A stretch of DNA of 64,000 nt, taken from contig JAFEBQ010000012.1 in assembly GCA_018242585.1 (NCBI GenBank), positions 62,001-126,000 on the forward strand, written 5' to 3'. The notes beneath the pieces were generated by a model. The model had not been told where the DNA came from and did not search any database. It saw only the letters and a list, made by a program, of their open reading frames with translations. Shown one piece after another: positions 26,474 through 31,203 of the stretch; position 1 is the first letter of the stretch; each line of letters opens with the position of its first letter. Position numbers and translations under genes: made by a program. The DNA is from Planctomycetota bacterium (GTDB lineage: Bacteria; Planctomycetota; Planctomycetia; Pirellulales; PNKZ01).

Positions 26474-27994
26474 ATGAACATTCAGCAATTCCTCGACCAC
26501 CACGGCATTGCCAGCAATCCGTTCGTGGAAGAAGACGCGCAGACTGATCCGGTGTTCAAAGAACACTGCATCGCCAGCATGCGCCATCCGACCTGGGACA
26601 AAATCTGCGGCGACCCGCGCGAGCCCAGCACCTCGGTCGTGTTTGGCGAGAAAGGGGCCGGAAAGACGGCCCTCCGCTTGCAAATCGCCCGGGAAGTGGC
26701 CCGGTTCAACCAGGCCAATCCCAACCAGCGGTTGTTCGTTATCGAGTATGACGACTTCAACCCGTTCCTCGATCGCTTTCGCGACACGCTCAGCCGCCGC
26801 AAACGCCGCGTCGACCGAGTGCTGGGGGAATGGAAGCTGTGGGACCACATGGACGCGATTCTGGCCATTGGCGTCACCCAGTTGGTCGACGCCTTGGTCG
26901 GCCCGGCGCCGGCGGCCAATGGCAAGGCTCCGCCGGTCGACGAGACCACCGGCGCGGCCAGTGTCGGGCGATTGGAACCAAAGCTCCTGTCGCGGCACCA
27001 GGCTCGCGACTTGCTGCTTTTGGCAGCCTGTTACGACCGGTCGACGGCCGAGACCCCCGTGGCGCGCTGGAACCGGCTGCGTCGCGTCCTCAGATTTCGC
27101 ACGTGGAAGACGCTTTGGCCGACGACGCTGGGAATCGTGGTCTTCCTGACGATTGCCGGACTAACCATTGGCTTGCAAGAGTGGCACTGGCTGGCGACCC
27201 CTTGGCCGTACCTGGCGGCCGCGGCGGCCTGGTTGCCGTGGCTGTGGAAGTTGTTGCGCGGCTGGACGCGCGCCCGGCGAGTGGCCCGCAACCTGAAAGT
27301 GTTGAATCGCCCGGTCGGCCCACTGACCAAGATATTCAACTCATTCTCCAGTGATGAACTGGCCGGCCAGCCGATGCCGACGCACGAGCGCACCGACGAC
27401 CGGTTCACAATGTTCGAGAAGTTTCAGGGGTTGCTTTCGACCCTCGGTTTTCCAGGCGTCCTAGTGCTGATCGATCGCGTGGACGAGCCTCATTTGATCA
27501 ACGGCTCGCCGGAACAGATGCGGGCCTTGCTCTGGCCGATGCTCGACAACAAGTTTTTGAAACAACCGGGGCTGGGCTTCAAACTGCTGCTGCCGATCGA
27601 GTTGGCCTACTTCATTGACCGCGAAGACCGCGATTTCTACCAGCGGTCGCGCCTGGACAAGCAGAACATGATCCGCTCGCTGGAATGGACCGGCGAGGCG
27701 TTGTACGACGTGGCCAACGCACGCTTGCGGGCCTGTGCCGCGCCGGGCAAGAAGCCCTCGCTCAAGGAGTTGTTCGACGCCAAGGTCGGCGAGCGGCGGC
27801 TGATCGACGCCCTGCAGAGCCTGCGCGTGCCGCGTCACTTGTTCAAGTTCCTCTACCGGTTGTTCGTGGCCCATTGCAACCGGTACACCGACGAAAACCC
27901 GGTTTGGGAGATCGGCAGCGAGACGTTCGAAGCGGAACTGGCCCTCTACCAGCGCGATCAAGACGCCTTCGATCGCGGCCTAGGGGCAGGCTGA
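26474..27994 (+). CDS. KAP-like P-loop NTPase with inserted transmembrane helices
   Basis: A 506-residue protein. Walker A is GEKGAGKTAL at residues 58-67 and a Walker B-like VLVLIDRVDEP lies at about 329-339. Between them sit two predicted membrane helices at about 214-234 and 240-262. Membrane helices inserted into a P-loop domain are the hallmark of KAP NTPases. The C-terminal part is helical and ends RDQDAFDRGLGAG. KAP proteins are thought to act at the membrane in signalling or defence. No recognisable effector is fused or adjacent. An alternative is another STAND-type ATPase. The start ATG at 26474 is the first in frame. Confidence 0.7.
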   Translation: MNIQQFLDHHGIASNPFVEEDAQTDPVFKEHCIASMRHPTWDKICGDPREPSTSVVFGEKGAGKTALRLQIAREVARFNQANPNQRLFVIEYDDFNPFLDRFRDTLSRRKRRVDRVLGEWKLWDHMDAILAIGVTQLVDALVGPAPAANGKAPPVDETTGAASVGRLEPKLLSRHQARDLLLLAACYDRSTAETPVARWNRLRRVLRFRTWKTLWPTTLGIVVFLTIAGLTIGLQEWHWLATPWPYLAAAAAWLPWLWKLLRGWTRARRVARNLKVLNRPVGPLTKIFNSFSSDELAGQPMPTHERTDDRFTMFEKFQGLLSTLGFPGVLVLIDRVDEPHLINGSPEQMRALLWPMLDNKFLKQPGLGFKLLLPIELAYFIDREDRDFYQRSRLDKQNMIRSLEWTGEALYDVANARLRACAAPGKKPSLKELFDAKVGERRLIDALQSLRVPRHLFKFLYRLFVAHCNRYTDENPVWEIGSETFEAELALYQRDQDAFDRGLGAG

Positions 27995-28231
27995 TCGAGT
28001 GCCCTGCCCTAGTCTCTAGCCCGTCGTCTCTATCCTCTCTTCCTCCTCCTGCTAGCACGCGCTGTTCGCCAACCTGCGCGGCGATATTCGTCTTGACCCT
28101 GCGGGCTGGTTCGTGCGACACTTCCGCTGCGCCGGCAGGGATGCCGGGCTCAATACACGCAAAATGCCGCTCGGTTACGCCGAATTGCACTCGTGCCGGC
28201 CGACAACGAATGTTTTCAGGAGACCGTAGCG

Positions 28232-28849
28232 ATGGATCGCCACCTGACCACTTGGGCCTTGGTTGCTGGATTCCTCACGCTTGCCGGTTGCGGTTCTTCG
28301 TCGAGTGGGCCCGCCGCCGGCGCCAATCAGCCGGGCGCCGACCGCTCGGTCCATGCGTTCCTCGAAGCCGTTCGCACCGGTCAGGAACAGCAGGCCGCAG
28401 CCATGCTCACCAAGGCGGCACGTGAAAAGACCGCCCAGATGAACCTGATCGTCGCCCCGCAAGGAAGCGACACCGCCAAGTTCGCGATCCTCGAAACCGA
28501 AATGCAAGCCGACGGCACCGCCCAAGTGGCCACGCAATGGACCGACGTTGGCGACGACGGCAAGCCGCAGTCGGATATGATCGTCTGGCTGGCCAAGTAT
28601 GAGCCGGAAGGCTGGCGCGTGTTCGGCATGGCCAGCAAGATATTCGACGATCAACCGGCGTTGATGCTCAATTTTGAAGACCCCGAAGACATGGTCCGCA
28701 AGCAACAAGCGGCCGAACTGGAAATGAATCGGCGGATACAAGCAGCCAAGGCCCAAACGACTCGCGCACAAGCGAGCGGCTTTGCCCCCACGCCGTCGGG
28801 CACGTTACCACCGCAGCAGGCCACCGCGCCGGGCACCGTTCAGCGATAA
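28232..28849 (+). CDS. Lipoprotein of unknown function
   Basis: The ATG at 28232 follows an AGGAGA ribosome-binding site. The 205-residue protein starts with a lipoprotein signal whose lipobox is LAGC, followed by SSSSG. The mature domain (about residues 35-150) contains SVHAFLEAVRTGQEQQAAAML and WLAKYEPEGWRVFGMA, which look like the planctomycete NTF2-like or DUF-type lipoproteins. A coiled helix and a Q/T/A-rich tail follow. The protein is probably anchored in a cell-envelope membrane facing the periplasm. Nothing adjacent suggests a partner. Confidence 0.75.
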   Translation: MDRHLTTWALVAGFLTLAGCGSSSSGPAAGANQPGADRSVHAFLEAVRTGQEQQAAAMLTKAAREKTAQMNLIVAPQGSDTAKFAILETEMQADGTAQVATQWTDVGDDGKPQSDMIVWLAKYEPEGWRVFGMASKIFDDQPALMLNFEDPEDMVRKQQAAELEMNRRIQAAKAQTTRAQASGFAPTPSGTLPPQQATAPGTVQR

Positions 28850-29545
28850 CGCGATCCAATGGTAAACCAGCCTGCTCACTGATTACTTTGACGCGCAGCT
28901 CTGAGCCATTTCCGGCCGCGCGATCGACATGAATCGTCCGCGCATTGCGCACGCTGCGTCTGTTTGGCAGTCTGTGCGCTCTTTGACGCCTTCCTCGCGG
29001 TTGCCAACGGAGCGGTGCCAGGGCCTTTTGCTCCGACTCTTGCGCGATCTCTAACGCTGAGTGCCCCCCCTGGCCGAAGAGGCTTCTACGGGACAGCATT
29101 GACAGCATCGCCTGCAATGCTTTCTGGCTAGCAAAGCCCGCACCGTTACGTCGGTCGAGCCAATTGCTAGCACTGACAAAGTTTAACATCGCCAAGAAAA
29201 AACGACGTAAGCCATTATCCGACAAATGGTTTAGGAATGGCTAACAAGCCGGTCGTCACGGGCAACCAAAACAACTTTTTTTACGCTGCTTTCCCCACCC
29301 GAATTGATTTTGGTGTAAACTTACTCGAAAATCATCGTCAAGCACCCAGAATGCCGAAACAACGCAATACGTTTACGTTTCCATTTCGGTACTTGACATC
29401 GCGATCGGCAATGCTAACTTAACCGACCTAACCTGTGTACTTGTGCCTGATGCTGTAACCGGCAAGGTTTGTTTGACAGGGCAATCGACCGACTGTTGCT
29501 AGCGTCAGCACATCGCAGTTTTTAGGGCAATTGTGGCCTCCCGTG
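28850..29545. other. Long intergenic region before the Cys-rich gene, no gene seen
   Basis: About 700 bases without a supported gene. Two TTGACA hexamers, at 29394 and 29473, lie upstream of the Cys-rich gene and either could be a -35 element, though no matching -10 is convincing. A minus-strand frame covering 28668-29225 lacks family features and overlaps the lipoprotein gene. Confidence 0.45.
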
Positions 29546-29620
29546 ACTGCCGTCACACTGGGGGGCGAGACCCAGGAAGACGGCAGTGGTTCGTTCCCGT
29601 ACGTACGGTACTAGTTTTTT
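29546..29620 (+). promoter_or_regulatory. Structured leader upstream of the Cys-rich protein gene
   Basis: A perfect 9-bp stem, ACTGCCGTC (29546-29554) with GACGGCAGT (29579-29587), encloses a further ACTGGG/CCCAG pairing. It is followed by the 12-bp palindrome CCGTACGTACGG (29597-29608), then TACTAG and six Ts ending at 29620. The ribosome-binding site GGAGG begins four bases after the T tract. This is the arrangement of a leader attenuator or a small structured regulatory RNA. Confidence 0.6.
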
Positions 29621-29635
29621 GTGGAGGACTTGAGG

Positions 29636-30007
29636 ATGAATCGTGCTTTGGTTTTCGGTATCGCGATTTTCTTCGCGGTTGTTGGTATCGCCCTGGTGGG
29701 CGGTGAAAACAACAAGGTGATGGCTGGTCACGGCTGCCACGGCTGCAGTGGCGCTTGCGATGGCTGCTCGGCCCCCGCTTGCTGCGCTCCGGCTGCTCCG
29801 GCTTGCTGCGCTCCGGCTGACTGCTGCGGCTGCTCGGGCCGTCGTCATCACCGCCTGTTCCATCGTAACCGTTGCTGCAAGCCCGCTTGCTGCGAACCGG
29901 CCTGCTGCGCTCCGGCGGCCTGCGCTCCGGCGTGCGATGCCCCGGCCGCTGAAAAGAGCGAGTCGGCTCCTCCGAAGGGTGACAAGAAGCCGGGTCCGTC
30001 GGCCTAA
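29636..30007 (+). CDS. Secreted cysteine-rich protein with CCAPA-type repeats
   Basis: A 123-residue protein from the ATG at 29636, behind GGAGGACTTGAGG. The N terminus is a hydrophobic signal (ALVFGIAIFFAVVGIALVGG). The mature part has about 25 cysteines in pairs spaced by ACCAPA and PACCEPACC-like repeats, plus HGCHGCSGACDGC and a histidine/arginine cluster RRHHRLFHRNR. It ends in a charged tail. Metal binding or disulfide cross-linking in the envelope would fit, but neither is shown. The strong ribosome-binding site, structured leader and strong terminator suggest high expression. Confidence 0.85.
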   Translation: MNRALVFGIAIFFAVVGIALVGGENNKVMAGHGCHGCSGACDGCSAPACCAPAAPACCAPADCCGCSGRRHHRLFHRNRCCKPACCEPACCAPAACAPACDAPAAEKSESAPPKGDKKPGPSA

Positions 30008-30084
30008 GGCCTGACGGGTGAACTGAGTCGACTCCCTCCCTGAAGGAAGGCGGCAAGTTCTCCTGGTTTTTTGGTCCGATCTTG

Positions 30085-30122
30085 GGCCGCTCCTCGTCGC
30101 AAGATGAGGAGCGGCCTTTTTT
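30085..30122 (+). terminator. Intrinsic terminator after the Cys-rich gene
   Basis: An 11-bp stem, GGCCGCTCCTC with GAGGAGCGGCC, closes a ten-base loop and is followed directly by six Ts at 30117-30122. It ends the Cys-rich transcript about 80 bases after the stop codon. Confidence 0.93.
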
Positions 30123-30468
30123 ATTGCGCACGATCCAATTTCCTTGCGCATGGTCCAAATGGCGACCATTTGTCAGGGGCCACGCCTCGCGGGGGGGCCG
30201 CACGACTATCCATTTAACTGAGGTAATTCAGGGCGTGTCACTGGTCGTCCATGCCCTGCCCCAGGTGCCTTGCGCCGCTGAACTTAGCGGTACATCTTCC
30301 CAGCAAATGCCACGATTCGCTCCACGCACCCGATTGCGTGAAATGCCTCGGGCAGAGAGAATCAGAACACGAGCGATTCGCCCCCTGGCCGCAAAGTATC
30401 TGCTGGCGGGGAGGCTGTCTGGGCCCGTCGCTCGACGATGCCCCCCGCGGTAGGAACGAGGAAGCGAT
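30123..30468. other. Intergenic spacer, no gene seen
   Basis: No coding sequence is supported in these 346 bases. A GAGG purine run just before 30469 serves as the ribosome-binding site of the next gene. I see no clear promoter hexamers. Confidence 0.4.
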
Positions 30469-31203
30469 ATGTCAGGTATTGGCGCGGTGCTCCGACAACT
30501 GCACCGCATCCATCGACAACTGGGCGATTTGCGTGATCGGCTCGAACGAGGGCCGCGAATGCTCAAGGCTCGCGAGGCCAACGTGGCCAAGGCCGAAGCC
30601 GAGTTGAATCAGATCAAGTCCGATCAAAAGGCCGCTCGGATGGCGGTTGATCAAAAGCAACTGCAACTAAAAAGCGGCGAGTCCAAGCTCGCCGATCTGC
30701 GCACCAAGCTGAACACCGCGAACAGCAATCGCGAGTACCAAGCCTTCCGCGATCAGATCGCCGCCGACGAAATGGCCGGCAGCGTCTTGTCGGACGAGAT
30801 TCTCGAAGGGATGGAAAAACTCGAAACCTTCAAAAAGCAAGTTGCCGAGTCCGAGCAACGCCTGGCCCTGGTGCAACAAGAACACTCCAAGGCCCAGAAG
30901 CAGGTCCAGGAACAATCGGGACTGATTGCTGGCGACGTGACGCGATTGGAAACCGAACTTCGGCCCGTCGAGAAACAACTGCCCCCCGAAGCGCTGGAGT
31001 TCTACCTGCGCGTGGTCAACGCCAAGGGCTTCGAGGCCATGGCCGAGGTTGAAGGGGACAGTTGCGGCGGCTGCTTCCAGCACATTACCCCCAACATGCA
31101 GAACTCGCTGGCGCTCGACAAAGTCGTGCAGTGCCAGACCTGCGGGCGATTGCTCTACCTGCCCGAAGATCGCATGCCCAATCGCTCGCGTGCCAGTACT
31201 TAG
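30469..31203 (+). CDS. C4 zinc-ribbon, coiled-coil protein (CdsZ/COG1579 type)
   Basis: A 244-residue protein with a long coiled coil over residues about 20-175 (MLKAREANVAKAEAELNQIK) and a C-terminal zinc ribbon. The ribbon has cysteines at CGGC and CQTCGR, with the helix LPPEALEFYLRVV in front. COG1579 proteins (CdsZ in Chlamydia) are thought to bind nucleic acid or assist translation-related RNA work. It precedes greA on the same strand by 195 bases, but a terminator-like hairpin lies between them. The ATG at 30469 follows GAGGAAGCGAT. Confidence 0.88.
   Translation: MSGIGAVLRQLHRIHRQLGDLRDRLERGPRMLKAREANVAKAEAELNQIKSDQKAARMAVDQKQLQLKSGESKLADLRTKLNTANSNREYQAFRDQIAADEMAGSVLSDEILEGMEKLETFKKQVAESEQRLALVQQEHSKAQKQVQEQSGLIAGDVTRLETELRPVEKQLPPEALEFYLRVVNAKGFEAMAEVEGDSCGGCFQHITPNMQNSLALDKVVQCQTCGRLLYLPEDRMPNRSRAST

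Follow-up and report, generated by a model that had tools for sequence, protein, structure and literature searches.

An Exported Cys-Rich Protein in a Conserved Genetic Context

The window, i.e., the complete stretch of 64,000 nt analyzed here, carries a 123-codon gene (positions 29636–30007) for an exported Cys-rich protein; all the features for which a role in its expression is discussed are, like the gene, on the forward strand. Upstream of it we found, in this order, a promoter, an irregular hairpin designated domain D1, a pseudoknot, a short tail and a Shine-Dalgarno sequence (SD), whereas a hairpin resembling an intrinsic terminator, with a stem of 15 pairs followed by a T run, lies downstream (30084–30124). 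From this strong terminator-like site at 30084, the transcription unit looks monocistronic.

The deduced product has 123 residues, with a Sec-type N-terminus, 19 Cys, 5 His and a His/Arg cluster, RRHHRLFHR, at residues 69–77. A preliminary description of this DNA had correctly recognized the exported protein, its length, the preceding SD and the cluster, although its estimate of roughly 25 Cys was too high. AlphaFold2 was confident only for an N-terminal helix (residues 3–25; mean pLDDT of the protein, 57.3), with no confident fold outside of this signal helix. The best Pfam match, Keratin_B2_2 (PF13885; 22.1 bits over 22 residues), is below the curated cut-off of 27 and corresponds to Cys-rich low complexity sequence. 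We infer that the product is a disulfide-rich envelope protein, and it might also bind metals; nevertheless, metal binding through His and Cys does not hold as a general trait, because His is absent from 15 of 85 complete homologs.

Homologs occur in 33 of the 57 genomes of our set of relatives (source genome counted), including Lacipirellula limnantheis, from the order Pirellulales. Cys content ranges from 8 to 21% in the 85 complete ORFs found downstream of 92 aligned leaders, the other seven ORFs being cut by contig or locus ends. An ATG codon directly follows the leader in all 92 cases, and the ORFs begin with MNR (80), MKR (9), MSR (2) or MYR (1). The mature part diverges strongly between families, with CAPATCAPAT repeats and few or no His in family f17 and CHGRCHGR repeats elsewhere; despite this divergence, Cys-richness, the leader, the promoter and the signal peptide are retained across families. 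Many homologs (e.g., those from L042, L041, L049 and the L128 locus L190) also end in a motif resembling FRxVxFRR, which is absent from the window protein.

A lipoprotein-like gene (28193–28849) is a conserved neighbor: in 84 of the 92 leader loci, a homolog lies upstream in the same orientation, and one of the eight remaining loci had just 256 nt of flanking sequence. This gene, present in 51 of the 57 genomes of the set, had no hit reaching the cut-off in Pfam or NCBIfam. Further upstream, positions 26474–27994 encode a P-loop ATPase of 506 aa, weakly similar to NCBIfam NF053860 (DS41_1 anti-phage protein; 96.7 bits, cut-off 370); a homolog precedes the lipoprotein gene in at least 22 of the leader loci whose flank reached that far. 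Downstream of the Cys-rich gene, positions 30469–31203 encode a protein with a CT398-like coiled coil and a C4 zinc ribbon, for which no counterpart was detected next to the leader in the remaining loci fetched. None of the neighboring genes examined was a metal transporter or a metal regulator.

The Leader Contains an H-Type Pseudoknot

The perfect 9-bp stem noticed in the preliminary description is real, and is formed by ACTGCCGTC (29546–29554) and GACGGCAGT (29579–29587), although it constitutes only half of a larger structure. Alignment of 36 distinct leaders at the start codon revealed a common order of arms, A1-B1-A2-B2, characteristic of an H-type pseudoknot and missed by nested folding; the local nested fold of the window leader is by itself ordinary (z −1.08). 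This order was observed in 34 of these first 36 leaders, those with a consensus-like helix B, and in 40 of 40 further leaders. In the window, the arms of helix A (A1, 29536–29543; A2, 29559–29566) pair at 8 of 8 positions and those of helix B, the stem mentioned above, at 9 of 9, leaving loops of 2, 4, and 12 nt. A first loop of 2 nt is tight for a helix of nine pairs, and the outer pairs of helix B may thus open. The loops differ in sequence and length among leaders.

Helix A was evaluated by comparing the best helix between the own arms of each leader with those obtained after exchanging arms among leaders, a design that takes into account the composition and the words that leaders have in common. 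The 34 leaders of the first set (L020 and L029, lacking a consensus-like B stem, were left out of the 36) had a mean of −15.2 kcal/mol vs. −11.9 kcal/mol when swapped (z −6.9), and none of 20,000 swaps was as good; the same result, 0/20,000, was obtained with one leader for each of 18 families. The second set was fetched with the covariance model R1, which includes helix B and not helix A, and provided 63 new leaders, of which 40, each from a different genus, were used after removal of the doubtful G213 and of three loci from the first set; here the means were −16.2 vs. −11.9 kcal/mol (z −9.1; 0/20,000). In single leaders, including L013, L028, L036, L048, and L062, native helix A was no better than many of the exchanged ones.

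The same pattern was seen within family f17, using 19 of its 23 leaders: 124 of 133 cells of helix A were paired, whereas 5000 swaps averaged 110 paired cells and never exceeded 120. At one pair, C-G, T-A, G-C, and T-G all occur, and G-U types account for 13 of the 124 paired cells; this variety of base pairs and the G-U cells fit RNA, and not DNA. Helix A is not conserved in sequence and covaries freely.

Helix B is conserved in sequence (GCCGUC/GACGGC) and not merely in structure, with a variable spacing between its arms. In the first alignment (31 leaders, without L020, L029, L062, L038, and L059), 98.9% of the cells were paired, vs. 18–66% in slid controls, and four of six pairs showed two-sided changes (six cells), vs. 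a shuffled mean of 0.7 pairs. With 92 leaders (90 distinct rows), the values were 99.4% of paired cells and 13 two-sided cells, in an alignment that was itself fitted to B. The covariation that the preliminary description had proposed to look for in the stem is hence present in helix B as well as in helix A. Two helices crossing in the expected order and both backed by covariation leave us almost certain that the leader contains a real RNA pseudoknot.

Promoter and Upstream Domain

Two further elements had escaped the preliminary description. The first is a promoter at 29393–29420, consisting of TTGACA (29393–29398), a 16 nt spacer and the extended −10 sequence TGCTAACTT (TG at 29412–29413, TAACTT at 29415–29420). 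The arrangement TTGACA-N13-TGnTA was present in 79 of the 92 leaders, with TTGACW-N16-TA in another 12, so that 91 of 92 have this conserved promoter ahead of the two RNA domains; in plain base shuffles these motifs appeared in only 10 of 1840 segments.

The second is domain D1 (29427–29520), an irregular hairpin with its main arms at 29442–29455 and 29500–29512 and a predicted fold of −32.3 kcal/mol in the window (z −2.07). It is formed by the middle of the first 66 nt past the −10 with the stretch that separates those 66 nt from the pseudoknot. Using 70 of 71 segments, its arms paired with −13.35 vs. −11.28 after swapping (0/10,000), and by groups the result was 0/10,000 for f17 (24 leaders) and 3/10,000 for 35 others. 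This pairing was picked after inspection of the sequences and the test is, therefore, less independent than that of helix A with the second set. A pairing test of the initial transcript with the upstream region gave 149/10,000.

The first 66 nt past the −10 (29421–29486 in the window), aligned for 41 of the 71 segments, contain words conserved across families: CCTAGCCTGTGCA, AAAGCTT, and AACAGGG, with ACAGGG at 29476–29481. No structure was found among the conserved words inside these 66 nt; they may represent an operator or, in the RNA, a recognition site. A candidate pairing of the upstream ACAGG with CCTGT in the tail was discarded (1915/10,000 in a test by regions).

Distribution of the Leader

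Matches to R1 were found in 35 of the 57 genomes of the set of relatives, two of them with a second, weak match. Within the order, 92 of 396 genomes had a match, always a single one. A search at the class level gave matches in 30 of 297 genomes, all within the order except G530; at the phylum level there were 12 matches in 392 genomes, eight inside the order and four weak ones elsewhere. These large searches used strict filters, and a missing match does not prove absence. No ORF of the Cys-rich family was seen at G530 and G179. Cys-rich genes do not follow G902 and G851, the two of the four weak out-of-order matches that were checked, nor the extra matches G041:C7, G049:C12, and G044:C92. In the source genome, a fixed pattern was found at two places, the leader and one more, which equals the control and gives no indication of a second copy. 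Altogether, the structural search went from 95 sources, without the G213 locus and a few duplicates, to 92 leaders, and the leader accompanies a single orthologous gene in at least 16 families, all from one order.

The association has exceptions. Besides L020 and L029 among the first 36 leaders, there are four genomes (G053, G044, G061, and G128) in which the gene comes with a pseudoknot that, by eye, has diverged, and G020 has the gene and no pseudoknot. Most of the other genomes with no match, checked via the lipoprotein gene as an anchor or via weak matches, have no Cys-rich ORF at that locus.

Possible Mode of Action

Comparative analysis establishes the promoter, domain D1, helices A and B, a single copy per genome, and a fixed gene partner and locus, and the leader is very probably a dedicated cis element. 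The interpretation that we favor, with a probability of roughly 0.6, is that of a new cis-acting leader RNA that would serve one exported protein by influencing translation or the lifetime of the mRNA. A transcript with a structured 5′ leader of about 200 nt would begin at the conserved promoter; D1 and then the pseudoknot would fold ahead of an open ribosome-binding site, and the leader would act in cis on the translation start or the lifetime of the mRNA for the Cys-rich protein, probably controlling the amount made. The most likely route would be a factor that reads helix B, with helix A retained as structure only: the fixed sequence of helix B as opposed to the free covariation of helix A points to B as the part that is recognized, or that is needed for tertiary contacts, and to A as a scaffold. 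Likewise, with one target gene in each genome, we favor an element dedicated to that gene, with an effect on translation start or mRNA lifetime. Given the exceptions (L020, L029, G020, and single A helices), the lack of a switch partner and the post hoc choice of D1, a clean mode of action is something that we infer. The chances that control of translation or stability would respond to some condition appear evenly balanced.

The main rival is a constitutive 5′ stabilizer or translation enhancer, whereby the folded leader would protect an abundant mRNA and keep the ribosome site open in the absence of any signal. This is possible, with a clearly lower probability than the cis-acting control element, and agrees with the near-perfect, conserved promoter, the single target gene and an SD that is not masked. 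The SD, GGAGGA (29623–29628; GGAGG is nearly invariant across the aligned leaders), was natively paired at 3.49 of 5 nt vs. 3.38 in shuffles (59 leaders), and there was no preferential pairing of A1, the A2 side or D1 with the SD region (mean z of −0.30, −0.07, and 0.04), so that masking of the ribosome site by the leader is not supported. Conversely, helix B is kept in sequence, beyond the needs of a mere road-block, and D1 is a second conserved part, both of which speak against simple stabilization.

A riboswitch for a metal, a thiol or another small molecule, which would recast the metal or redox response suggested in the preliminary description at the level of translation or stability instead of a terminator, is unlikely. 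H-type pseudoknots act as aptamers in known riboswitches, such as those for preQ1, SAM-II, and fluoride, the product is Cys-rich, and D1 contains the conserved words ACAGGG and AAAGCTT; however, there is one gene per genome, the pseudoknot loops vary, and there is no conserved switch partner. Modeling of switching without pseudoknots revealed no alternative pairing that would control the SD or a terminator.

It is improbable as well that the leader corresponds to the little-described Rhodopirellula-1 RNA motif, which is listed for Proteobacteria and Planctomycetes, with a "y" in what we take as the cis-regulatory column, in a table line that gives no Rfam accession (PMC2864571). Going by this table line, both are planctomycete motifs, apparently marked as cis-regulatory in the published case, although the range stated for Rhodopirellula-1 (PMC2864571) includes Proteobacteria, and our leader searches covered planctomycete genomes. 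This was the one planctomycete-related motif that our literature searches returned, structured regulatory RNAs being hardly described for planctomycetes in what they retrieved, and planctomycete terms do not appear in the main text of two large RNA surveys. As anticipated in the preliminary description, which recognized no known riboswitch class, Rfam 15 (4227 families) gave no match at the gathering cut-off in the window and 20 relative loci, and permissive scans yielded low-scoring matches alone, none credible in the leader. From the lack of Rfam matches, and going by the table line for Rhodopirellula-1, we file the leader as a new family within a known kind, the structured mRNA leaders.

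A transcription attenuator is highly improbable: the 12-bp palindrome CCGTACGTACGG (29597–29608) and six T (29615–29620) noticed in the preliminary description do exist, but the hairpin is of only −3.8 kcal/mol and ends several bases short of the T run, the site is not among the terminator-like sites found, and the palindrome with T6 is not a conserved terminator, with most relatives carrying other sequences in its place, usually GGTACCTGTTT. Between pseudoknot and SD, GGTACC is present in 58 of the 92 tails and GGTAC in 69; a third hairpin around GGTACC was weak (41/20,000; tail fold z 0.07) and was discarded, and local tail hairpins are visible by eye in some genera. Equally improbable is a DNA operator, with the inverted repeat GCCGTC...GACGGC bound by a dimeric protein instead of acting as RNA, since the conserved sequence of helix B that would suit it is accompanied by a variable arm spacing, by a helix A that covaries while its sequence changes freely and that accepts G-U pairs, and by a location downstream of the promoter.

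Returning to the cis-acting leader RNA, a bolder and rather doubtful proposal is that of a new class of regulatory leader RNA of Pirellulales, with two domains (an irregular hairpin containing the conserved ACAGGG plus an H-type pseudoknot with one sequence-fixed helix) that would jointly sense a signal from the cell envelope, a thiol or a metal. If true, they would adjust how much is made of one Cys-rich exported protein found throughout the order. For each pseudoknot helix we have a prediction of both strands, which makes compensatory mutants and structure probing directly feasible.

Comparison with Known Systems

The preQ1, SAM-II, and fluoride riboswitches of bacterial 5′ leaders likewise have a knot of the H-type ahead of the ribosome site. 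The leader described here differs in having no Rfam match, in its variable loops, with helix B conserved instead, and in possessing a second, upstream domain and one target gene. Ribosomal-protein leaders of the S15 and S4 type are autogenous pseudoknots, and resemble it in that a knot, possibly protein-bound, is dedicated to one target; however, the product here is an exported Cys-rich protein and not an RNA-binding protein. A sacculus made of protein and linked by disulfides has been described as the wall of planctomycetes (PMC2754498), and our Cys-rich exported protein comes from the same bacterial group, the likeness being one of group and Cys-richness. The leader also gives a handle on a family of Cys-rich exported proteins within the group for which a disulfide-linked sacculus is described (PMC2754498).
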